The notes under the pieces: generated by a model
The model's database searches: none
Seen by the model: the letters and a program-made list of their open reading frames with translations, nothing else
What the model was told of the DNA's origin: nothing
Shown: positions 694 to 15,327 of the stretch, in pieces
Position numbering within the stretch: the stretch's first letter is position 1
Layout of the letters: each line of letters opens with the position of its first letter
Made by a program: the position numbers and the translations under genes
DNA from: a virus
Virus record (IMG/VR): IMGVR_UViG_3300048996_000071
Span: 1-60,544 of that record
Strand: one strand, 5' to 3'
Length of the DNA stretch: 60,544 bases

Positions 694-748
694 TGCCCCC
701 GCCGGGAGTCGAACCCGGCCTGCACCCAGTATCACTGTGCTCGGGGGC
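694..748 (-). ncRNA. tRNA-like minihelix T1
   Basis: On the minus strand GCCCCCG pairs perfectly with CGGGGGC (7-bp acceptor), followed by an A at the discriminator position. The T-arm is CCGGG-TTCGACT-CCCGG. The 23-nt link holds a small hairpin (CAGT-GAT-ACTG) and the motif GGTGCAGG seen in other copies. There is no D-arm and no usable anticodon loop, so this is not a normal tRNA. It sits between the stop of the 73-aa gene and the Shine-Dalgarno of the metallopeptidase gene. Confidence 0.7.
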
Positions 749-7571: not shown

Positions 7572-7616
7572 TGACCGCCGAGGGACTCGAACCCCCAACC
7601 TTTCCCCGGCGCGGTC
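7572..7616 (-). ncRNA. tRNA-like minihelix T2
   Basis: Minus strand: GACCGC pairs with GCGGTC (6 bp), discriminator A, T-arm GGGGG-TTCGAGT-CCCTC, link GCCGGGGAAAGGTTG. No D-arm or anticodon arm. The acceptor sequence differs entirely from T1 and T3 but keeps pairing. It precedes the 92-aa gene. Confidence 0.65.
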
Positions 7617-7682
7617 AGTCGTGCGATACACCTTCCGAGTCCCTGCAGGGAGACGCGACGCTTCTCACGAAAGGCATACCTC

Positions 7683-7736
7683 GTGGCTGACCCCGTACTC
7701 CAGGGACTGCTCTATCCAGTTGAGCTAGACAGACAA
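7683..7736 (-). ncRNA. Orphan tRNA 5' half (acceptor strand, D-arm, stem-loop)
   Basis: The minus strand has a textbook tRNA start: seven bases, TA, D-arm GCTC-AACTGGATA-GAGC, then a GTCCC/GGGG stem-loop. I find no matching 3' acceptor strand (GACAGAC) and no T-arm in place. It may be a decayed tRNA or a D-arm mimic. A CACGA/TCGTG hairpin follows. Confidence 0.45.
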
Positions 7737-7742
7737 CCAGTT

Positions 7743-7838: not shown

Positions 7839-7841
7839 ACG

Positions 7842-7917
7842 TAGCGGGAACTGGATTTGAACCAGTGATCTTCGGCTTATGAGGCCGACGAGGACGACCT
7901 AACTCCTCTATCCCGCC
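7842..7917 (-). tRNA. tRNA-Met (CAT)
   Basis: Acceptor GGCGGGA/TCCCGCT (first pair G-U), TA, D-arm GAGG...CCTC, anticodon arm TCGGC-CTCATAA-GCCGA with anticodon CAT, variable loop AGATC, T-arm ACTGG-TTCAAAT-CCAGT, discriminator A, no encoded CCA. A CAT anticodon could also be read as tRNA-Ile after lysidine modification. I cannot separate these by eye. Confidence 0.9.
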
Positions 7918-7983: not shown

Positions 7984-9129
7984 TCAGCCTACCAACTTGG
8001 CGGCCTTGCGACCGTCCGCGTTGATCACGCCTTCGATGCCGGGGATCGTGCACTTGGTGCCGTCGTTCGGGTCGTTCTTGTCGGGGAACAGGCGGGCTGA
8101 CACCGCGCCCGGGCTCGGCGACTCGGTGCCGTACTCGTCGGACGGAGTCTTGACGATCTCGTTGATCGAGAGCACGGTACCCACGGGCTTGCCGGCGAAG
8201 GCGCTCAGGATATGGTTCGCGATGTTCTTCCGAGTACCGTCGCCCGCCGCGCGAGGCGACCGGGGCGTTGAGGTGCCACTCGCGGCCTTGCGGGGCTTCG
8301 CGACGCTGGCCCGACCCCGGGCCAGCCGGAAGCCCGCCTTGATGACGTCGGTCGCCTCCGGCGCTTCCTTGTCGAGGGCCTCGCGGACCTCCTCGGTCGC
8401 ATCCTCGGGCAGCGCCGCCACCTTGTCCTGATGGGCAGCGTACGCCCGCGCTGCATCGATCAGCTGCTGGGTGGACTGCTCGTTGAGCTTGTCCGGCCAG
8501 TCAGCGTCGACGCCCTCGGGCACCCGCACCATGTAGGGTGCGATGTACAGGCCGAGCACCTGATCGATGAAGGCCTGCGTCACGTCGACGGTCACCTTCG
8601 GCGCCGCCGGCGCCTTCGCGCCGGTGCTGACCAGCGAGTGCTTCTTGATCATGAACCACGAGCGGGCGTACGGCGAAAGCGCCGGGTCCTCCATGGCTCG
8701 GCCGACCTCGGCGTCGACCCAGGTCTTGACCCTGGTGCGGACGGCACCGGCGGGCAGCTCGTTGAACTTGGCCCGAATGTCGTTCAGCACACCGTCGGGG
8801 AAGAAGCCGGTGCTTTCGTCGCGCACGTCGCTGCAGATCAGGCCGCCGACCCAGTCGCCCGATTCGTTCCTGACGCCGAGGTAGTCGATGAAGTCGGTGG
8901 CGAGCTTGTCGAGACGCGCAGCCTCGGCAGCGGCTTCCGCCTTGGCCTTCGCCTCGGTTTCGGCCGCAGCAGCAGCCTTCTGCTCCTCGGTCAGCTCGAC
9001 CGGCGCCTCGGGCGTGCCCTCGGTGGTCGAGTCGACCGCGTTGGGGTCGGTCGACTCAGCGCTGGCTTCGGTGCTGACAGTCACGGTCTCGGTCTCGCCG
9101 AGCACCGCACCGTCCTGGGAGTCAGACAT
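7984..9129 (-). CDS. Protein with acidic N-terminus and C-terminal wing-like domain, 381 aa
   Basis: Start ATG 9129 follows GGAGGTGCAC. Residues 1-65 are acidic and low-complexity, then an alanine/glutamate coiled region (about 50-80), a central alpha-rich part, a basic linker (about 285-310), and a C-terminal domain (about 312-381). That domain contains NHILSAF, GTVLSINEIV, EYG and PSPGAVSARLF. The same domain ends the proteins at 9398-9853 and 9933-10565. The pattern suggests a winged-helix or HARE-HTH-like DNA-binding fold (inference). Possibly a regulator or nucleoid-type protein. Confidence 0.75.
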   Translation of the reverse strand: MSDSQDGAVLGETETVTVSTEASAESTDPNAVDSTTEGTPEAPVELTEEQKAAAAAETEAKAKAEAAAEAARLDKLATDFIDYLGVRNESGDWVGGLICSDVRDESTGFFPDGVLNDIRAKFNELPAGAVRTRVKTWVDAEVGRAMEDPALSPYARSWFMIKKHSLVSTGAKAPAAPKVTVDVTQAFIDQVLGLYIAPYMVRVPEGVDADWPDKLNEQSTQQLIDAARAYAAHQDKVAALPEDATEEVREALDKEAPEATDVIKAGFRLARGRASVAKPRKAASGTSTPRSPRAAGDGTRKNIANHILSAFAGKPVGTVLSINEIVKTPSDEYGTESPSPGAVSARLFPDKNDPNDGTKCTIPGIEGVINADGRKAAKLVG

Positions 9130-9179
9130 GTGCACCTCCAAGGTGTACGATAGTGTGTGTTCTCCGTGCGTCACCACCT

Positions 9180-9320: not shown

Positions 9321-9398
9321 CTAACCAGCAGAGTTGAATCCGCTGATTGTGACACTGTCGTCGTCCTCGATGTCTATGGCCAGGTATTCCCGGGCCAT
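9321..9398 (-). CDS. Possible acidic micro-protein, 25 aa
   Basis: ATG 9398 overlaps the TGA of the upstream gene as TGATG. The product is MAREYLAIDIEDDD followed by a short polar tail. Support is the coupling arrangement only, with no separate ribosome site. Confidence 0.35.
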   Translation of the reverse strand: MAREYLAIDIEDDDSVTISGFNSAG

Positions 9399-9853
9399 CA
9401 GGCTACCTTGATCGCACCCTTCCTGCCAGCAGGGTACGCATCGCTGATGATCAGCGTACCCTTGACGTTGCCAACCGTGCGCGGCGTGCCGTCGGCGTCG
9501 AAGAGTCGCGCCGCAACGGCACCGGCCCCCGGAGAGTCGTCGCCGTACTCCACGGAACGATGCCTGGCGATCTCGGCGACCGTCAGCTCCGCGTGCTCGG
9601 GCTTGTCGGTAAAGGCACTGATGATGTGCTGGCCGACATCACGTCGCGGGCCGAAATACTTCTCGGCAAGATCAACCTTCGGCGCAGGCTCCTCCTCGTC
9701 GTATGCGCTCTTCCCGGTTTCGATCGTCTCGGCGAATTTGTCAAACGCCTCGGCGATCGACGAGTACACTCTCGCCTCGATGTGATCTTCCGTCAGATTG
9801 TAGTTCATGCGGAACTCTCGCGCAACGGCACGAGCCGCTCTGACTGCGTCCAT
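9398..9853 (-). CDS. Wing-like domain protein, 151 aa
   Basis: ATG 9853 lies 6 nt after a TAGGAT -10, so the mRNA is predicted to be leaderless. Residues 1-75 are helical. Residues 76-151 carry the shared domain (QHIISAFTD, ELTVAEIARHRSVEYG, SPGAGAVAARLF, NVKGTLIISDA). This is one of three paralogues in a row, suggesting a duplicated DNA-binding family. Possible roles include transcription control. Function unproven. Confidence 0.75.
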   Translation of the reverse strand: MDAVRAARAVAREFRMNYNLTEDHIEARVYSSIAEAFDKFAETIETGKSAYDEEEPAPKVDLAEKYFGPRRDVGQHIISAFTDKPEHAELTVAEIARHRSVEYGDDSPGAGAVAARLFDADGTPRTVGNVKGTLIISDAYPAGRKGAIKVA

Positions 9854-9859
9854 ACAACC

Positions 9860-9889
9860 ATCCTACCTTACACAGGCCGGTCATGTCAA
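9860..9889 (-). promoter_or_regulatory. Leaderless promoter TTGACA-18-TAGGAT
   Basis: -35 TTGACA (9884-9889), 18-bp spacer, -10 TAGGAT (9860-9865), then six bases and the ATG. The expected +1 is at or next to the start codon. Confidence 0.75.
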
Positions 9890-9898
9890 CCAGCTTTG

Positions 9899-9938
9899 TG
9901 CCTGGGGCGGGAATCGAACCCGCCCTGCACCATCAGGC
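9899..9938 (-). ncRNA. tRNA-like minihelix T3
   Basis: GCCTG/CAGGC end stem, link ATGGTGCAG, T-arm GCGGG-TTCGATT-CCCGC, discriminator A. Its 5' strand GCCTG contains the TGA stop of the 210-aa gene. Followed by a promoter instead of a TAGACAG hairpin. Confidence 0.7.
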
Positions 9939-10565
9939 TACCCTTTCTCCACCCTTCACGTTGTTGACGTAGCAGGGCACGATGCCCGGCGTGAGCGACT
10001 CACGCTTCCCGTCGTCCGTACGGAACAGCCACGCCATGACGGCACCAGGTGACGGGTGGTTGTTGCCGTACTCCTCCGACGTGTGCGCGACAATCTGGGC
10101 AATCGTCAGCTTCGTGCCGATCGGCAGGTCAGCGAATGCCGAGATGATGTGCCTGGAGACCTGGCGCCGAACGGGCGTGCGCTGTAGGGCAGGATCACCC
10201 TTCGGCCCACAGTCCGGCCTCGGCTGCAACACAGCCTGCTCGTTGCGCCGCTGAATCACCCAGGGCCAATCGCCATCGATCAGGCCCTGCACGATCGCGC
10301 CAGCCAGCACCAAATTCAGCTGATCGAGGTTGGCGCCGCACTCGGCGGCCAGCGTATTGTAGTCGACCTGCATGCGGTCCCGAGCATCTGCATCGGGTGC
10401 GTAGTGAAGCAGCACCTCAAGCAGACTATAGCTCGCCGTACCGGGACCTGTCATGTCCCCTCCGATGATGATTCGCCGTAGTGTCTGGCTGGCCGTTTCG
10501 TGCGGGTACGCCATGCGGCGTATCTGTTCCCGCACTTCGTTGTCTACGCGCACCATTCTACTCAT
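9933..10565 (-). CDS. Wing-like domain protein, 210 aa
   Basis: ATG 10565 overlaps the stop of the upstream gene by ATGA. The N-terminal 40 residues resemble a ribbon-helix-helix segment (MVRVDNEVREQIRRM, then TASQTLRRII), the middle is helical, and the last 75 residues are the shared domain (RHIISAFADLPIG, LTIAQIVAHTSEEYG, PSPGAVMAWLF). The gene ends inside tRNA-like element T3. The RHH plus wing-like architecture suggests a DNA-binding regulator. Target unknown. Confidence 0.75.
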   Translation of the reverse strand: MSRMVRVDNEVREQIRRMAYPHETASQTLRRIIIGGDMTGPGTASYSLLEVLLHYAPDADARDRMQVDYNTLAAECGANLDQLNLVLAGAIVQGLIDGDWPWVIQRRNEQAVLQPRPDCGPKGDPALQRTPVRRQVSRHIISAFADLPIGTKLTIAQIVAHTSEEYGNNHPSPGAVMAWLFRTDDGKRESLTPGIVPCYVNNVKGGERVA

Positions 10566-10846
10566 GCGGCCACATTCCCGACTATGTCAGGCTGAGCAAC
10601 ATTCGGGTCGATGCCGACGGCTTTCGCCAGTCGACGTCCACCTGCAGTGCGGTAGAACCACAGCTGGTAATCTTGCATCCAGCTACGTACGCACTTCGTC
10701 GTCGGACACACCGTGTTCTGGTGGTCGCAGTGGTAGGATAGCCACTTGATCTCCAACTGGTACCAGGCGCCGTCCTGTTTCAGGACGGACGGCACGTAGT
10801 TGTAACCAGACAGCTTCCGTAGGTTGCGATACCTTTGTCTACCCAT
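10562..10846 (-). CDS. Unknown basic protein, 94 aa
   Basis: I take ATG 10846, six nt after TAGGAT, as a leaderless start. The in-frame GTG two codons earlier would overlap the spacer after the -10. The protein is basic at its N-terminus (GRQRYRNLRKL) and has Cys/His residues (YHCDHQNTVCPTTKCV) at about 38-53 that could bind zinc. Coupled to the 210-aa gene by ATGA. Confidence 0.65.
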   Translation of the reverse strand: MGRQRYRNLRKLSGYNYVPSVLKQDGAWYQLEIKWLSYHCDHQNTVCPTTKCVRSWMQDYQLWFYRTAGGRRLAKAVGIDPNVAQPDIVGNVAA

Positions 10847-10852
10847 GTACAC

Positions 10853-10881
10853 ATCCTATCACATGGATCGTTCACTTGCAA
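10853..10881 (-). promoter_or_regulatory. Leaderless promoter TTGCAA-17-TAGGAT
   Basis: -35 TTGCAA (10876-10881), 17-bp spacer, -10 TAGGAT (10853-10858), 6 nt to ATG. The spacer end CGATCCATGTG matches the promoter at 7191-7219. Confidence 0.7.
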
Positions 10882-10917
10882 CCCCACTCTCCCAGAGCTT
10901 CAGGAGATTAGGAAAGC

Positions 10918-10957
10918 GCCTGGGGCGGGAATCGAACCCGCCCTGCACCTATCAGGC
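10918..10957 (-). ncRNA. tRNA-like minihelix T4
   Basis: GCCTG/CAGGC end stem, link ATAGGTGCAG, T-arm GCGGG-TTCGATT-CCCGC. Located 10 nt after the stop of the 153-aa gene and upstream of the 10853-10881 promoter. Confidence 0.7.
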
Positions 10958-10967
10958 TTTGTGCACC

Positions 10968-11429
10968 TCAGCGACCGCCAGGCTGCCAACCATCAGGGCT
11001 GCTCGGACGCTTGGTGTGATCGCCAACCTCGAACCCGACCATTCTTTCGCGTCGGATCTGGTCAGTGATGTCCTGCTGGCCCTGCGCTTTATTGCGCCTG
11101 GGCAGCCCAGCCTCTGTCGGCTCGCTGGGCTCCGTGCCATCTGGACCCATCAGCGACGGGTTCCGCAGGAACACGCATTCCAGCATCGCCTGCGCGATGA
11201 AGTCGAACTCCTCACCCATCCGACCGGGCGTGTGCCCGAGGTTGGTCAGAAAGTCGACCGCCGCGTCTTTGGCGCCGTCGTAGATCCGTTCACCTTCCGA
11301 CAGGCCAAGAGTCAGCGCCAGGCGCAACCTCAACGACTGGTGAAGCATGCTCACCTGCCTGTGAGTCATCCTGTCGATAATGCTGACCTGGTCGAGTACG
11401 CCTTCGGCGTACTCGTGCTCATCTGGCAT
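10968..11429 (-). CDS. Helical protein, 153 aa, paralogue of the 12281-12583 product
   Basis: ATG 11429 lies 22 nt after hairpin H2 with a GTAGGGAGG ribosome site. The middle (RIYDGAKDAAVDFLTNLG, then QAMLECVFLRNPSLM) parallels IRDGAVDRAISLIHDSG and QTMLECAFMYDVPFM in the 12281-12583 gene, so the two are diverged duplicates. The C-terminal 45 residues are polar and probably unstructured. Function unknown. Confidence 0.7.
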   Translation of the reverse strand: MPDEHEYAEGVLDQVSIIDRMTHRQVSMLHQSLRLRLALTLGLSEGERIYDGAKDAAVDFLTNLGHTPGRMGEEFDFIAQAMLECVFLRNPSLMGPDGTEPSEPTEAGLPRRNKAQGQQDITDQIRRERMVGFEVGDHTKRPSSPDGWQPGGR

Positions 11430-11451
11430 GACTAGTGCCTCCCTACCATGT

Positions 11452-11470
11452 GCGCAGTAGTCTACTGCGC
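11452..11470 (-). promoter_or_regulatory. Hairpin H2 (loop TAGACTA)
   Basis: GCGCAG-TAGACTA-CTGCGC, 6-bp stem. Loop differs at the last two bases from the TAGACAG family. 5 nt downstream of T5 and 22 nt upstream of the 153-aa start. Confidence 0.65.
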
Positions 11471-11474
11471 TACG

Positions 11475-11523
11475 TGCCTGGGCGAGGAATCGCACCCCGC
11501 CTGCACCGAACTATCGGCCAGGC
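11475..11523 (-). ncRNA. tRNA-like minihelix T5
   Basis: GCCTGG/CCAGGC end stem (6 bp), T-arm CGGGG-TGCGATT-CCTCG with a G at loop position 2, and a CCGA-TAGT-TCGG mini-hairpin plus GGTGCAGG in the link. Begins 2 nt after the stop of the 26-aa gene. Confidence 0.6.
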
Positions 11524-11525
11524 TA

Positions 11526-11606
11526 TCAGGTTTTGAGCGCTATGTACAGGGCCGCGGCAATGATTGCCGTTACCCAGAACACGCGTTTGAATGTGCCCCA
11601 GTCCAT
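11526..11606 (-). CDS. 26-aa single-span membrane peptide
   Basis: ATG 11606 with GGGAGGTATC upstream. MDWGTFKRV then a hydrophobic span (FWVTAIIAAALYIAL) and KT. A clean ribosome site, a position between two coupled units and a typical transmembrane composition support a real micro-gene. It ends just before T5. Confidence 0.6.
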   Translation of the reverse strand: MDWGTFKRVFWVTAIIAAALYIALKT

Positions 11607-11618
11607 GATACCTCCCTG

Positions 11619-12185
11619 TTACAGGTCGATCGTGGAGTGTCCGCATTCGAGCTCGTAGGCTGCCGTAGGATCACGGTGCGCCTCAACCACGAACCGACGG
11701 ACCACCCTGGGCGCACGCAGCGTACCGTCCACGAGGGGCGGGCAGCTATAGCATGGCCTGCGCTCGGGCGGCTGGACAAGGTGGCACCCGCAACCCAGCA
11801 CCTCGGTGTCCCGCTGTGGCCTGGCCCGGTAATCCCGGTACCAGTCCACCAGGGGCACGCGGACCAGGTGAATCGGGCAGTCGCGCAGCTCGGACAGACT
11901 CATCAGGCGCTCGTACTCGGCATGCCGCACGTCATCGGCACGGGACAGGTCGAGACCCTCCCGGTCGAACACGTGCTCGCAGTAACCCTCGTACGAGTGC
12001 TTGCCGCGCCTGGTGATCTCAGTGCCGCTGCCACAGGGCACGCAGTACCACGTGAACCGCAGCCAGCTGATCAGCGAGGCTCGGGATTCCGATTTGTACT
12101 CGAATCCCTGCAGCCAGTCGTAATACCAGTCCAGCTGCGCGTCACGACGGAACGAACGCACCTCGGCGTCTTCCATGTCACCCAT
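11619..12185 (-). CDS. Cys-rich unknown protein, 188 aa
   Basis: ATG 12185 is 23 nt from hairpin H3 with GGTAGGAAGG between. Several CxxC pairs (CVPC about 48-51, CGCH about 132-135, CYSC about 144-147, CGH near the end) suggest one or two zinc-binding sites. Tryptophan/tyrosine-rich N-terminus (DWYYDWLQGFEY). No recognised family. Confidence 0.7.
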   Translation of the reverse strand: MGDMEDAEVRSFRRDAQLDWYYDWLQGFEYKSESRASLISWLRFTWYCVPCGSGTEITRRGKHSYEGYCEHVFDREGLDLSRADDVRHAEYERLMSLSELRDCPIHLVRVPLVDWYRDYRARPQRDTEVLGCGCHLVQPPERRPCYSCPPLVDGTLRAPRVVRRFVVEAHRDPTAAYELECGHSTIDL

Positions 12186-12208
12186 GACTAGTGGGCCTTC
12201 CTACCATG

Positions 12209-12231
12209 GCCAGCCCCTGTCTAGGGCCAGC
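12209..12231 (-). promoter_or_regulatory. Hairpin H3 (loop TAGACAG)
   Basis: GCTGGCCC-TAGACAG-GGGCTGGC: 8-bp stem including two G-U pairs. 5 nt after T6 and 23 nt before the 188-aa start. Confidence 0.7.
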
Positions 12232-12236
12232 TACGC

Positions 12237-12276
12237 GCCTGGGGCGGGAATCGAACCCGCCCTGCACCAATCAGGC
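12237..12276 (-). ncRNA. tRNA-like minihelix T6
   Basis: GCCTG/CAGGC, link ATTGGTGCAG, T-arm GCGGG-TTCGATT-CCCGC. Follows the 100-aa gene by 4 nt. Confidence 0.7.
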
Positions 12277-12280
12277 TTTA

Positions 12281-12583
12281 TCAGGTGACGATCTGCTTTT
12301 GTGCGAGCCTGTCCATGAACGGAACGTCATACATGAACGCGCACTCCAACATGGTCTGCGTGAGCCCATCGTACGATGGGCTCTGTGGATCGACCACGCC
12401 CGAGTCGTGAATCAGACTGATGGCGCGATCAACGGCGCCATCACGAATACTGGTCGCCTCGCTACTGGTTTCCAGCAGTACCGTCCTATTGATCAGGACG
12501 TTGTACAGCTGGAAGGTCAACTCTGTGGCCCGATCGTCCATGATCTGGCGAACGTCGTCGACCGTGAAGCTAGACTGTGACAT
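12281..12583 (-). CDS. Helical protein, 100 aa, paralogue of the 10968-11429 product
   Basis: ATG 12583, six nt after TAGGAT, so a leaderless transcript is possible in addition to read-through from upstream. Mostly helical. The second half aligns with the 153-aa paralogue (IRDGAVDRAIS, then TMLECAFMYDVPFM). Function unknown. The duplication within a few kb suggests a shared role. Confidence 0.7.
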   Translation of the reverse strand: MSQSSFTVDDVRQIMDDRATELTFQLYNVLINRTVLLETSSEATSIRDGAVDRAISLIHDSGVVDPQSPSYDGLTQTMLECAFMYDVPFMDRLAQKQIVT

Positions 12584-12589
12584 ACAGCC

Positions 12590-12618
12590 ATCCTACTCTA
12601 CCGGCCAGCCCCTGTCTA
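12590..12618 (-). promoter_or_regulatory. Possible leaderless promoter TAGACA-17-TAGGAT
   Basis: -10 TAGGAT (12590-12595), 17-bp spacer, TAGACA (12613-12618) as -35. The -35 is the loop of hairpin H4, so this hairpin copy may double as promoter DNA. Confidence 0.5.
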
Positions 12619-12626
12619 GGGCCAGC
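12604..12626 (-). promoter_or_regulatory. Hairpin H4 (loop TAGACAG)
   Basis: Same sequence as H3. 5 nt after T7 and 20 nt before the 100-aa start. Confidence 0.65.
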
Positions 12627-12631
12627 ACTGC

Positions 12632-12670
12632 GCCTGGGGTGGGAATCGAACCCACCCTGCACCATCAGGC
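12632..12670 (-). ncRNA. tRNA-like minihelix T7
   Basis: GCCTG/CAGGC, link ATGGTGCAG, T-arm GTGGG-TTCGATT-CCCAC. Relative to T6 the second T-stem pair changes C-G to T-A on both strands, a compensatory change. Confidence 0.7.
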
Positions 12671-12677
12671 CTTCTGT

Positions 12678-13097
12678 TCAGCCGCCCAGAATACGATCGG
12701 CATAGTCCTCGTTGTACCACACGTTGCCAGCTCGATCCAGGCACGCCGATCCCTCCGCCTCGTGGCCGAGGTAGTCGGTACAGCGGCCAGCCTCATCGGA
12801 GGAAGACTTGCACCTGCCAAGGTAGCCCACCATGTCGAATCCCAGCTCGTCCAGTTTCGCGTTGCTGGGCTTCTGACCCTGGTAGGCCAGTGGCGTCGCC
12901 ACGTCGGTTGCAGCGAAGTCAGCCGGAATCACGCAGAACGCGATCCAGTCATACTCCTCCATGTCACGGACGGCGTTCAGGATGTGCTCCTGGACCAGGG
13001 CGTTCGACCGAAAGGTCTCTTCGCCCTGCATGAACACGTCCGTCTCGGTCTGCTCGCCTGATCGAAGCGCGATCGTCACGTTTGCCCGTACAGCCAT
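12678..13097 (-). CDS. Unknown protein, 139 aa
   Basis: ATG 13097 sits 23 nt after hairpin H5 with AGGAAGG between. An in-frame upstream ATG overlaps the ribosome site and is rejected. The first 60 residues look like a beta-rich fold (VRANVTIALRSGEQTETDVF). The C-terminal half has three cysteines. Function unknown. Confidence 0.7.
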   Translation of the reverse strand: MAVRANVTIALRSGEQTETDVFMQGEETFRSNALVQEHILNAVRDMEEYDWIAFCVIPADFAATDVATPLAYQGQKPSNAKLDELGFDMVGYLGRCKSSSDEAGRCTDYLGHEAEGSACLDRAGNVWYNEDYADRILGG

Positions 13098-13120
13098 GAC
13101 TAATGACCTTCCTACCATGT

Positions 13121-13139
13121 GCGCAGCTGTCTACTACGC
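13121..13139 (-). promoter_or_regulatory. Hairpin H5 (loop TAGACAG)
   Basis: GCGTAG-TAGACAG-CTGCGC, 6-bp stem with one G-U pair. The stem differs from H3 but the loop is identical. 5 nt after T8 and 23 nt before ATG 13097. Confidence 0.7.
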
Positions 13140-13144
13140 AACGC

Positions 13145-13183
13145 GCCTGGGGCGGGAATCGAACCCGCCCTGCACCATCAGGC
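13145..13183 (-). ncRNA. tRNA-like minihelix T8
   Basis: GCCTG/CAGGC, link ATGGTGCAG, T-arm GCGGG-TTCGATT-CCCGC. Begins 4 nt after the stop of the 98-aa gene. Confidence 0.7.
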
Positions 13184-13187
13184 CTTA

Positions 13188-13484
13188 CTAGAGTTTCGCG
13201 ATCCAGAAGATCCACCTGCCGACCAGGAACGACTGGCCACCGTTGCGCTCGACATCGGCCTCGACGCGTTCAGTGTCGAGGACGCGAAGCGAGGCTTCCA
13301 GGTTGAAACGCTGGTAGGCGGTCAGCACCTGGCGCCCGCCCTCACCTTTGAGAATAGCGCCGAAGCCCTTCCAGGCATCCTCGAAGTTCGGGTATTCGAT
13401 GGTGTTGGCAGTGATGGTGGCGTGTCCTGGGCTGTTCCAGCCCACGGTCCACGTACCGGCCGTCTTGATCATTTCGACAGTCAT
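13188..13484 (-). CDS. Unknown protein, 98 aa
   Basis: ATG 13484 lies 22 nt after hairpin H6. The long upstream open frame runs through T9 and is not coding. A beta-rich N-terminus (TAGTWTVGWN) is followed by ILKGEGGRQVLTAYQRF and a C-terminal QSFLVGRWIFWIAKL. Possibly a small protein-binding fold. No family recognised. Confidence 0.65.
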   Translation of the reverse strand: MTVEMIKTAGTWTVGWNSPGHATITANTIEYPNFEDAWKGFGAILKGEGGRQVLTAYQRFNLEASLRVLDTERVEADVERNGGQSFLVGRWIFWIAKL

Positions 13485-13506
13485 GACTAGTGACCATTCT
13501 ACCCAG

Positions 13507-13529
13507 GCCAGCCCCTGTCTAGGGCCAGC
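13507..13529 (-). promoter_or_regulatory. Hairpin H6 (loop TAGACAG)
   Basis: Same 8-bp stem as H3. 5 nt after T9 and 22 nt before ATG 13484. Confidence 0.7.
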
Positions 13530-13534
13530 TTTGC

Positions 13535-13581
13535 GCCTGAGGCGGGAATCGAACCCACCCACACCCCACCAGGAGCCAGGC
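13535..13581 (-). ncRNA. tRNA-like minihelix T9
   Basis: GCCTGG/TCAGGC end stem (last pair G-U), T-arm GTGGG-TTCGATT-CCCGC (one T-G pair), longer link with CTGGTGGGGTG. Confidence 0.65.
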
Positions 13582-13588
13582 TTTTGTA

Positions 13589-13864
13589 CTAGTCGCCGTA
13601 GCAGCGGAAGCAGTAGCTCCATCCCCTGCACCAGTGACCCTGGTCGATGGCCGCACCCCAAGGGGTACGGTACAGCACTCCCTCGCGTCGCATGGCAGCG
13701 AATGCCAGCTCGACAGCGTACTCCTCGGCGAGCGGTGGCTGACTATAACGCACCTCGTGAGGCAGGTCATAGTCAACATAGTAGCTCACCCACCAGTCCA
13801 CCTGGAAGGTGAACATCTTCCGCTGGTGTTCCGGCAGCATGCCCAATGCAACTTCCAGCTTCAT
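13589..13864 (-). CDS. Aromatic-rich unknown protein, 91 aa
   Basis: ATG 13864, 23 nt after hairpin H7 with a weak GGGA site. The N-terminus is helical (LEVALGMLPEHQRKMF) with a WW/YY-rich middle, and the C-terminus is Cys/Trp-rich (WCRGWSYCFRCYGD), possibly binding metal. Unknown function. Confidence 0.65.
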   Translation of the reverse strand: MKLEVALGMLPEHQRKMFTFQVDWWVSYYVDYDLPHEVRYSQPPLAEEYAVELAFAAMRREGVLYRTPWGAAIDQGHWCRGWSYCFRCYGD

Positions 13865-13887
13865 AGCTAGAGTCCCATTCTACCCTG

Positions 13888-13910
13888 GCTGGCCCCTGTC
13901 TAGGACCAGC
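13888..13910 (-). promoter_or_regulatory. Hairpin H7 (loop TAGACAG)
   Basis: GCTGGTCC-TAGACAG-GGGCCAGC: two stem positions that are G-U in H3 are A-T and G-C here. 5 nt from T10. Confidence 0.7.
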
Positions 13911-13914
13911 ACTG

Positions 13915-13957
13915 TGTCCAGGGTGGGAGTCGAACCCACCAGATCACCAATCTGGAC
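13915..13957 (-). ncRNA. tRNA-like minihelix T10
   Basis: End stem GTCCAG/CTGGAC (6 bp), different in sequence from GCCTG/CAGGC but still paired. T-arm GTGGG-TTCGACT-CCCAC, discriminator A, link ATTGGTGATCTG. An alternative CCAGAT/ATCTGG hairpin is possible. Confidence 0.7.
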
Positions 13958-14045
13958 GCGTGGCAGGGTTATTTGAGATCACGCACATTGCCTGGCCAGC
14001 CTGTGCGTAACCTGCGAGGTACCATACTGAGCCGCCCCATGCCAT
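13944..14045 (-). CDS. Possible 33-aa peptide
   Basis: ATG 14045 with AGAGGG upstream at suitable spacing. Sequence MAWGGSVWYLAGYAQAG then CVISNN, and its stop lies inside T10. It fills the gap between T12 and T10. Composition is aromatic and alanine-rich. Weak support. Confidence 0.4.
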   Translation of the reverse strand: MAWGGSVWYLAGYAQAGQAMCVISNNPATRPDW

Positions 14046-14061
14046 ACAGAGGCCCTCTACG

Positions 14062-14127
14062 TAGCATCCCGGAATCGAATCCGGCAGTAGACGAGGAGTG
14101 CCCGCCCACCGGCTAACCTGCAATGCC
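14062..14127 (-). ncRNA. tRNA-like element T12 (larger, degenerate)
   Basis: GGCATTG can pair with GGATGCT (two wobbles, one mismatch), and a CCGG-ATTCGATT-CCGG arm has an 8-nt T-like loop. The 36-nt body is too short for both D and anticodon arms. It lies between the 208-aa gene and the 33-aa frame. May be a decayed tRNA. Confidence 0.45.
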
Positions 14128-14162
14128 GACCACTCACCACCCCCGTCCTTGGGGGTGAGTCC

Positions 14163-14789
14163 CTATTTGCCAGTGTATTCGCGCACCTGGCGAGCGTGTT
14201 CGATGGCGACCCTGGCAGCCCGCATGATCTGCGGACTGAGTTTGCCCGTGAACCCGTACTTGGACTTCACGTAGGCAGCGATCTCGGCCCTGGTCGGGCC
14301 GTTGCCGCTGGCGCCACCGTTGCTGGAGCTGGTGCGGGTGCTGGCAGCGCGCTTGGGTGCAGCGCCGCCCTTCGGCGCACGCTTCACCTTCGACGCGGCG
14401 GCAGCCCTGTTGTCCAGCTTCTCGGCAACAGCGGGCTTCACCACGCGGGCCACCTTTAGCGGACCGTCAGGCGTGTCGATCATGCGCTGGACCAGGCGAT
14501 CACGACCCACGAACCAGACACCTTTGTCAGTGTCATAGCGCGGGTAGTTGTCGACCTCGTCCTGGCTGACCGAGATGCCGGGTCGGGGACTGGCGGGCGT
14601 GTTGTTCGGCGCTGATTCCAACGGCGAACGCACGCCCACGCAGAACCCCGTCATCGGGTTCACCACGTCGACCAGTTTGTTACCACCCAGGTCTCGGCGA
14701 CGCAGCATGGAATGAGGTTCGACCCGATTCTGGACGAACATGCGTTCCGTGCGCAGCTGTTCCTGCGTGATCACAATTGGTTCAGTCAT
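14163..14789 (-). CDS. Basic protein with Lsr2-like-looking tail, 208 aa
   Basis: ATG 14789 is 23 nt after hairpin H8. The N-terminal half is unrecognised (PRYDTDKGVWFVGRDRLV around 95-112). A basic linker of Lys, Ala, Ser, Gly and Asn follows, then a C-terminal 50 residues TRAEIAAYVKSKYGF...SPQIMRAARVAIEHAR. This resembles the small DNA-binding tails of actinobacterial nucleoid proteins in size and placement only. A nucleic-acid-binding role is an inference. Confidence 0.65.
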   Translation of the reverse strand: MTEPIVITQEQLRTERMFVQNRVEPHSMLRRRDLGGNKLVDVVNPMTGFCVGVRSPLESAPNNTPASPRPGISVSQDEVDNYPRYDTDKGVWFVGRDRLVQRMIDTPDGPLKVARVVKPAVAEKLDNRAAAASKVKRAPKGGAAPKRAASTRTSSSNGGASGNGPTRAEIAAYVKSKYGFTGKLSPQIMRAARVAIEHARQVREYTGK

Positions 14790-14812
14790 GACTAATGACC
14801 TTCCTACCATGT

Positions 14813-14831
14813 GCGCAGCTGTCTACTACGC
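14813..14831 (-). promoter_or_regulatory. Hairpin H8 (loop TAGACAG)
   Basis: Identical to H5 (6-bp stem). 5 nt after T11 and 23 nt before ATG 14789. Confidence 0.7.
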
Positions 14832-14836
14832 AACGC

Positions 14837-14876
14837 GCCTGGGTGGGGAATCGAACCCCACCTGCACCTATCAGGC
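14837..14876 (-). ncRNA. tRNA-like minihelix T11
   Basis: GCCTG/CAGGC, link ATAGGTGCAG, T-arm TGGGG-TTCGATT-CCCCA (stem changed on both strands relative to T8). Its 5' strand contains the TGA stop of the 83-aa gene. Confidence 0.7.
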
Positions 14877-15122
14877 TTTGTTATTCGAAGTGATGTCAAC
14901 CGTGATGTCAGCCGTGACCAGTTCTCCCTGCATCGCGTTCAGCTCCAGCTTCACGAAGTGCAGGTACTCGTCATCGGTCATCAGGCCCCTGCGATATTGC
15001 GCCAGGATCTTTTCCAGGTACGCCATGTGCGTCGCACGGATGGCATCACTGATCATGTCGTTCAGCTTCCTGGTACGCCTGGTCATCGGCCGCTCGACAG
15101 CTTCGATGGTGATTTCCGGCAT
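14871..15122 (-). CDS. Small helical protein, 83 aa
   Basis: ATG 15122 follows GTAGGGAGG, 21 nt after hairpin H9. Basic, helical region (RPMTRRTRKLNDMISDAIR) then an acidic YLHFVKLELNAM helix and a short beta-like tail. It is the first gene of the punctuated minus-strand series. Function unknown. Confidence 0.7.
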   Translation of the reverse strand: MPEITIEAVERPMTRRTRKLNDMISDAIRATHMAYLEKILAQYRRGLMTDDEYLHFVKLELNAMQGELVTADITVDITSNNKA

Positions 15123-15143
15123 GACTAATGCCTCCCTACCAGT

Positions 15144-15166
15144 GCGTGCCCCTGTCTAGGACACGC
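15144..15166 (-). promoter_or_regulatory. Hairpin H9 (loop TAGACAG)
   Basis: GCGTGTCC-TAGACAG-GGGCACGC: 8-bp stem with different base pairs from H3 and H7 and the same loop. 21 nt from ATG 15122. Confidence 0.7.
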
Positions 15167-15169
15167 TAG

Positions 15170-15238
15170 CGGCTGTAGGGGGAATTGAACCCCAGTAGGA
15201 CCAGGCGCCCCCATATTGCCAGGCGCCCATCTACAGCC
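15170..15238 (-). ncRNA. tRNA-like element T13
   Basis: Perfect 7-bp acceptor GGCTGTA/TACAGCC, discriminator G, T-arm with TTCAATT loop, and one long hairpin in the body (GGCGCC/GGCGCC). No D-arm or anticodon-sized loop. It is the first element of the series, upstream of the first gene. Confidence 0.65.
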
Positions 15239-15268
15239 AAACCATACACACTACCTATCTTCGGTGCC

Positions 15269-15291
15269 ACCTAGCTAGTCAGGCTAGGTGT
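15269..15291. repeat. Hairpin CACCTAGC-TAGTCAG-GCTAGGTG
   Basis: 8-bp perfect stem with a 7-nt loop TAGTCAG on the plus strand, one base from the TAGACAG loop of the opposite-strand family. Confidence 0.5.
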
Positions 15292-15327
15292 AGAACTGTT
15301 TTGTTTGATCCCCGTCCCGGTGTTGGC

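Follow-up and report, generated by a model that had tools for sequence, protein, structure and literature searches.

Half-tRNA minihelices between phage genes: probable tRNA-style punctuation of polycistronic transcripts

In the tRNA punctuation of mitochondrial transcripts, tRNA-shaped units lie between genes, and the cuts expected from RNase P and RNase Z free the mRNAs between them. Here we describe a related arrangement in DNA phages, starting from IMG/VR virus record IMGVR_UViG_3300048996_000071, the whole of which (60,544 bases) is referred to below as the window. Between genes of this phage lie minihelices, or mini-tRNAs, that have the form of the acceptor/T half of a tRNA and would probably act as processing signals. 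They differ from the mitochondrial units in having no anticodon arm, in belonging to DNA-phage operons, and in being usually followed by a hairpin and a ribosome site; with no anticodon arm, they therefore cannot be working tRNAs. Armless mitochondrial tRNAs have also lost arms and kept the acceptor end, but they retain the anticodon and still decode, whereas the phage elements have none. In phage T7, polycistronic RNA is cut at RNase III sites, which are intergenic RNA hairpins. The elements described here are tRNA-shaped rather than long double strands, and in T7-like cyanophages they precede the capsid gene.

RNase P, tRNase Z and the CCA-adding enzyme all accept half-tRNA minihelices (PMC3714273), and model hairpins made of acceptor stem, T-stem and T-loop are cut by RNase P, for which the T4 gene 32 mRNA is also a substrate (PMC11143913). 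These laboratory constructs share with the phage elements an acceptor stem stacked on a T-stem and the T-loop (PMC3714273; PMC11143913), but the phage elements are natural and carry a conserved GG bulge or a mini D-arm. The nearest actinophage motif is SAS/ESAS of cluster K mycobacteriophages, where ESAS, a 17-bp imperfect inverted repeat with a spacer of mostly 4-13 bp, stands beside SAS (PMC3203893). There too a repeated inverted-repeat motif and a conserved ribosome site precede many small genes, with no function assigned; the form differs, and the description of ESAS, for which no T-loop is reported, sets the phage elements apart from it (PMC3203893). The repeated gaps of Gordonia phage CaiB (PMC9302106) were considered as well; they contain a different motif. 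No published description of the minihelix was found in the open-access literature, most subscription-journal papers being outside the scope of this search.

Comparison of the copies indicates that the minihelix is a real structured RNA. It consists of 12 bp capped by a tRNA T-loop, and in place of the other tRNA arms there is either a GGUG bulge of 8-9 nt or a very small D-arm. Ten window elements fold by themselves into this shape. The consensus of 50 aligned copies is 5 bp, the bulge AUGGUGUA, 7 bp and the loop UUCGAYU. In this alignment 94.7% of cells are paired, and double-sided changes in helix pairs number 110, compared to 28 in shuffles. The acceptor sequence varies freely among copies, and in the alignment the GGUG bulge and the T-loop are invariant. 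Several copies bear instead a mini D-arm with the loop UGGU, in which the GG is present, and this suggests that the GGUG bulge is the counterpart of the D-loop.

The acceptor plus T-stem of a tRNA amounts to 12 bp (7+5). A helix total of exactly 12 bp was found in 11 of 11 window elements (copies that are not mutually independent), in 13 of 16 from Gordonia phage VanLee, and in 17 of 28 from other non-redundant contigs, against 4% in a null where the T-stem is kept and the flanks are shuffled. The T-stem and the acceptor each range from 4 to 8 bp, the branch point shifting while the sum stays at 12 in the window copies and most of those from VanLee. Since the copies of any one phage are related to each other, it is the agreement between lineages that supports this rule independently. 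In window copies G occupies the first paired position and the base immediately 3' of the helix is a purine, and their T-loops have the form UUCRANN, the sole exception being UGCGAUU in the element T5. This variant form, UGCRANN, in which G replaces U55, recurs in mini-tRNAs of unrelated phages (window 11476-11523, and contigs L152 and L150). The stacked 12-bp helix, the T-loop cap and the covariation are thus those of the acceptor/T half of a tRNA. The elements do not belong to the tRNA family proper (Rfam RF00005), as they have no anticodon arm; ARAGORN and Rfam do not detect them, and no Rfam 15 family matches at gathering score. Weak Rfam matches to the plastid ycf2 untranslated region and tRNA-Sec were rejected as opposite-strand or forced T-arm matches.

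The same RNA was found in unrelated viruses. Our covariance model R1, trained on a set including six of the matched window copies, detects six copies in the window at E 5e-14 to 2e-18, and eight at E <= 2.1e-4. The pattern TGGTGNAGGNNNGGTTCGANTCC matched 90 viral contigs, by our own estimate far above the few chance matches expected for its 18 fixed bases, and a near-identical, longer pattern occurs in only 5 stretches of 257 Gb of bacterial and archaeal genomes. The elements are intergenic and on the coding strand, and the UGA stop of the preceding gene often falls within them. A single copy is present in most contigs and two to four in some, and arrays occur in the window phage and in VanLee, where 17 of the 17 gaps examined hold such an element and none is annotated. 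A short-query BLAST search gave partial matches only, yet it pointed to VanLee and Dagobah. A second pattern, GGGTTCGATTCCC..TAGACAG, was discarded, as its matches in viral contigs were mostly ordinary tRNAs or tmRNAs plus a chance TAGACAG; it did reveal the cyanophage psbA copies. Gene 126 of VanLee (contig L195) encodes a Ro-like RNA-binding protein, and this phage also has a tRNA-Arg. Bacterial Y RNAs, which are bound by Ro, have tRNA-like domains.

T7-like cyanophages carry the element 5' of the major capsid gene or of psbA. At the capsid slot it is directly followed by a conserved leader hairpin starting with UUGGC. The same slot holds a complete tRNA in 19 non-redundant contigs (18 Gly-UCC and one Met) and a mini-tRNA in 32; tRNA-Ser matches were omitted from these counts, being tandem tRNAs outside the capsid slot. 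In the isolate NATL1A-7, an annotated tRNA-Gly occupies it. The distance from the acceptor end to UUGGC is 1-2 nt for complete tRNAs and mini-tRNAs alike. P-SSP7, S45C4 and S-SBP1 give no strong R1 match, but have diverged T-arm elements in this position. The placement is therefore that of punctuation: the unit is tRNA-shaped, it stands on the coding strand between two genes, and a real tRNA can take its place. The capsid-slot tRNA does not encode its CCA. A tRNA of this kind needs RNase Z-type 3' trimming to function, and hence RNase Z is expected to set free the leader that follows. In the light of this established tRNA biology, the simplest reading of a mini-tRNA with the same spacing is that it is processed like a tRNA. 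The exchange of tRNA and mini-tRNA at one slot, which lies outside the window, is the strongest point for recognition by RNase P and RNase Z. We consider it reasonably likely that these elements form a widespread half-tRNA family, unnamed so far, that does not decode and serves only as cut sites, dividing operons of unrelated cyanobacterial and actinobacterial DNA phages into separate hairpin-led mRNAs, with complete tRNA genes able to take their place at a given locus.

A third type of capsid-slot element was seen in other cyanopodoviruses (contigs L210, L209, L225, L226, L233, L241 and others). It has a variable, covarying stem of about 6-10 bp and an invariant 15-nt loop, CACCUCAG(A/U)GUCGGA, followed by the UUGGC hairpin; it is present in at least 120 contigs and has no Rfam match. 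Several cyanopodovirus contigs (L035, L214, L271, L293) have glutamine-II riboswitches 5' of the capsid slot.

In the window, every module is on the minus strand. The initial annotation had described eight of them between 9899 and 15238, with fixed spacing and hairpin stems of differing sequence, and both points were borne out. The order is stop codon, minihelix, 4-5 nt, hairpin, 20-23 nt including the ribosome site, and ATG. For T5, T6, T7, T8, T9, T10, T11 and T13 respectively, the gap from minihelix to hairpin is 5, 5, 5, 4, 5, 5, 4 and 4 nt, and the distance from hairpin to ATG is 22, 23, 20, 22, 22, 23, 22 and 21 nt. Five distinct stems, with paired changes, bear the loop UAGACAG or a near variant. 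The loop had been given as TAGACAG in all eight modules; it is exact in seven of the eight hairpins, H2 having UAGACUA. T3 makes a ninth fitting module, with a gap of 5 nt and 22 nt to the ATG, and with the loop UGACAUG instead of UAGACAG. At T4 (10957-10918) and at 748-695, the minihelix is present and the adjacent simple hairpin is absent. The stop codon is mostly 4-10 nt 5' of the minihelix; its UGA lies within T3 and T11, and in T5, T10 and T13 the position is less clear. The elements are as follows.

695..748, minus strand: mini-tRNA beyond the span reported initially, 6+6 bp, loop UUCGACU, GGUG in the linker, 7 nt after the stop; then ribosome site and ATG, with no hairpin between
9876..9894, minus strand: T3 hairpin, ATG at 9853
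9900..9938, minus strand: T3 mini-tRNA, GCCUG-AUGGUGCA-GGGCGGG-UUCGAUU-CCCGCCC-CAGGC, UGA of the upstream gene inside
10918..10957, minus strand: T4 mini-tRNA, no UAGACAG hairpin after it
11452..11470, minus strand: H2 hairpin, loop UAGACUA, ATG at 11429
11476..11523, minus strand: T5 mini-tRNA, mini D-arm, T-loop variant UGCGAUU
12209..12231, minus strand: H3 hairpin, loop UAGACAG, ATG at 12185
12237..12276, minus strand: T6 mini-tRNA
12604..12626, minus strand: H4 hairpin, ATG at 12583
12632..12670, minus strand: T7 mini-tRNA
13120..13140, minus strand: H5 hairpin, ATG at 13097
13145..13183, minus strand: T8 mini-tRNA
13507..13529, minus strand: H6 hairpin, ATG at 13484
13535..13581, minus strand: T9 mini-tRNA, mini D-arm with loop UGGU
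13888..13910, minus strand: H7 hairpin, ATG at 13864
13916..13957, minus strand: T10 mini-tRNA, 6+6 bp form, distinct acceptor GUCCAG/CUGGAC
14812..14832, minus strand: H8 hairpin, ATG at 14789
14837..14876, minus strand: T11 mini-tRNA, UGA stop of the upstream gene inside
15144..15166, minus strand: H9 hairpin, ATG at 15122
15171..15238, minus strand: T13, a larger variant with 8 bp acceptor, 4 bp T-stem and an extra arm, total still 12 bp

On the basis of these sequences, we regard it as quite probable that the minihelix is a natural half-tRNA serving as RNA punctuation in polycistronic phage transcripts. A long polycistronic RNA would be made first, and the 12-bp acceptor/T helix, the T-loop and the GG bulge would dock like the elbow of a tRNA. 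Host RNase P would then cut at the 5' end of the element, either at the stop codon of the gene before it or immediately past that codon, and host RNase Z would cut at the 3' end, behind the unpaired base. This would leave a downstream mRNA that starts a few nt before the hairpin, with the ribosome site next. In the window, in VanLee and in many unrelated lineages, 2-5 nt separate the element from the start of the hairpin. A 5' hairpin near an mRNA end slows 5'-dependent decay, and the phage hairpin may hinder decay in the same manner, with a presumed effect on expression; the genes that the elements precede, psbA and the major capsid gene among them, are ones for which high expression is expected. 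That RNase P or RNase Z recognizes the minihelix had been proposed at the outset, and comparison supports this part of the model through the 12-bp acceptor/T helix, the T-loop, the D-loop-like GG and the exchange with tRNAs, while cleavage, the resulting monocistrons and protection by the hairpin stay at the level of prediction.

Several observations speak against this model. CCA is not encoded, though it aids bacterial RNase P, and there is no strong preference for U at position -1. The downstream hairpin is missing in some actinophage contigs, the capsid slot of other cyanophages holds a different hairpin, and arrays are absent from the phages related to the window phage by tape measure and helicase. 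Simple end protection also leaves the conservation of the UAGACAG loop on five stems unexplained; a loop-specific binder of this hairpin is possible. If the model is true, tRNA punctuation extends from organelles to phage operons, and RNase P and RNase Z have in these elements natural minimal substrates that lack an anticodon. The gaps of about 100 nt left unannotated in VanLee and similar phages would then be accounted for, and major phage genes, cyanophage psbA and capsid among them, would have a further layer of processing upstream. The processing of long transcripts in phages without T7-style RNase III sites becomes a directly testable question.

Could the same element act without being cut at both ends? 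It might be a tRNA-like 3' cap: either a single RNase Z cut, possibly coupled to CCA addition, or trimming by exonucleases would leave on the upstream mRNA a structure that blocks 3' exonucleases, RNase P taking no part. The tRNA-like ends of plant viral RNAs block 3' exonucleases, and the phage element stands directly after stop codons. Minihelices are, moreover, accepted by the CCA enzyme (PMC3714273). However, the conserved first-position G and the exact 12-bp distance in the window and VanLee fit 5' cutting as well, and a complete tRNA occupying this slot would be released by cuts on either side. We consider a cap unlikely. Less probable still is an uncut regulatory structure, on which a tRNA-binding factor (EF-Tu, a synthetase, a phage protein or Ro) would control translation of the next gene by operator mimicry. 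The UAGACAG loop kept on different stems suggests a specific binder, and VanLee encodes the Ro-like protein, but the element sits at the upstream stop, with the ribosome site and the hairpin separate and downstream; its acceptor sequence is freely variable, and it is exchanged with an ordinary tRNA-Gly, itself expected to be processed.

We find it very improbable that the modules are promoters, with UAGACA as the -35 box, TAGGAT/TAGAAT as the -10 box, and the T-arm hairpin terminating upstream transcription. Only two modules (9889 and 12618) score as sigma-70-like, with boxes 16-18 nt apart, and in most the spacing is 13-14 nt. The stems around UAGACAG show paired changes, the covariation is at the RNA level, and the boxes are absent in other lineages; no intrinsic terminator, that is a G+C hairpin with a U run, was detected in 9800-15300. 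The notion that the elements are functionless, either decayed tRNA genes or duplicates of an integration site at a tRNA 3' end, is hardly credible. It would explain the retained T-arm sequence, and a tRNA-Met, the only tRNA seen by ARAGORN and Rfam in the window, lies nearby on the module strand (7841-7917, minus), but it is already contradicted by the covariation: compensatory change is strong, and both length and placement are fixed in distant phages.

The tape measure and helicase of the window phage resemble, at low identity, proteins of Gordonia, Rhodococcus and Tsukamurella phages; full mini-tRNA elements are absent from these distant relatives. No protein-based relatives were found among the viral contigs, and BLAST of the module region against phages gave no match. 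PHROGs matches among the window proteins include primase/helicase, terminase, portal and tail genes. The module genes scanned had no family match, with the sole exception of 9933-10565 (minus strand), which matches phrog_6708. This is the third of three genes (7984-9177, 9398-9853 and 9933-10565, minus strand) that apparently have a related C-terminal domain in common, around DEYG..SPGAV. At 14058-14100 (minus strand), there is a degenerate T-arm-like hairpin, CCGG-AUUCGAUU-CCGG, which departs from the 12-bp rule. Finally, in the region 7573-7740 (minus strand) there is a stretch resembling a D-arm, UAGCUCAACUGGAUAGAGC; some 100 nt further on, near 7591, comes a T-arm-like hairpin whose end resembles that of an acceptor, and these pieces are possibly a split or decayed tRNA. 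The stretch also has CUGUCUA, the complement of the UAGACAG loop.

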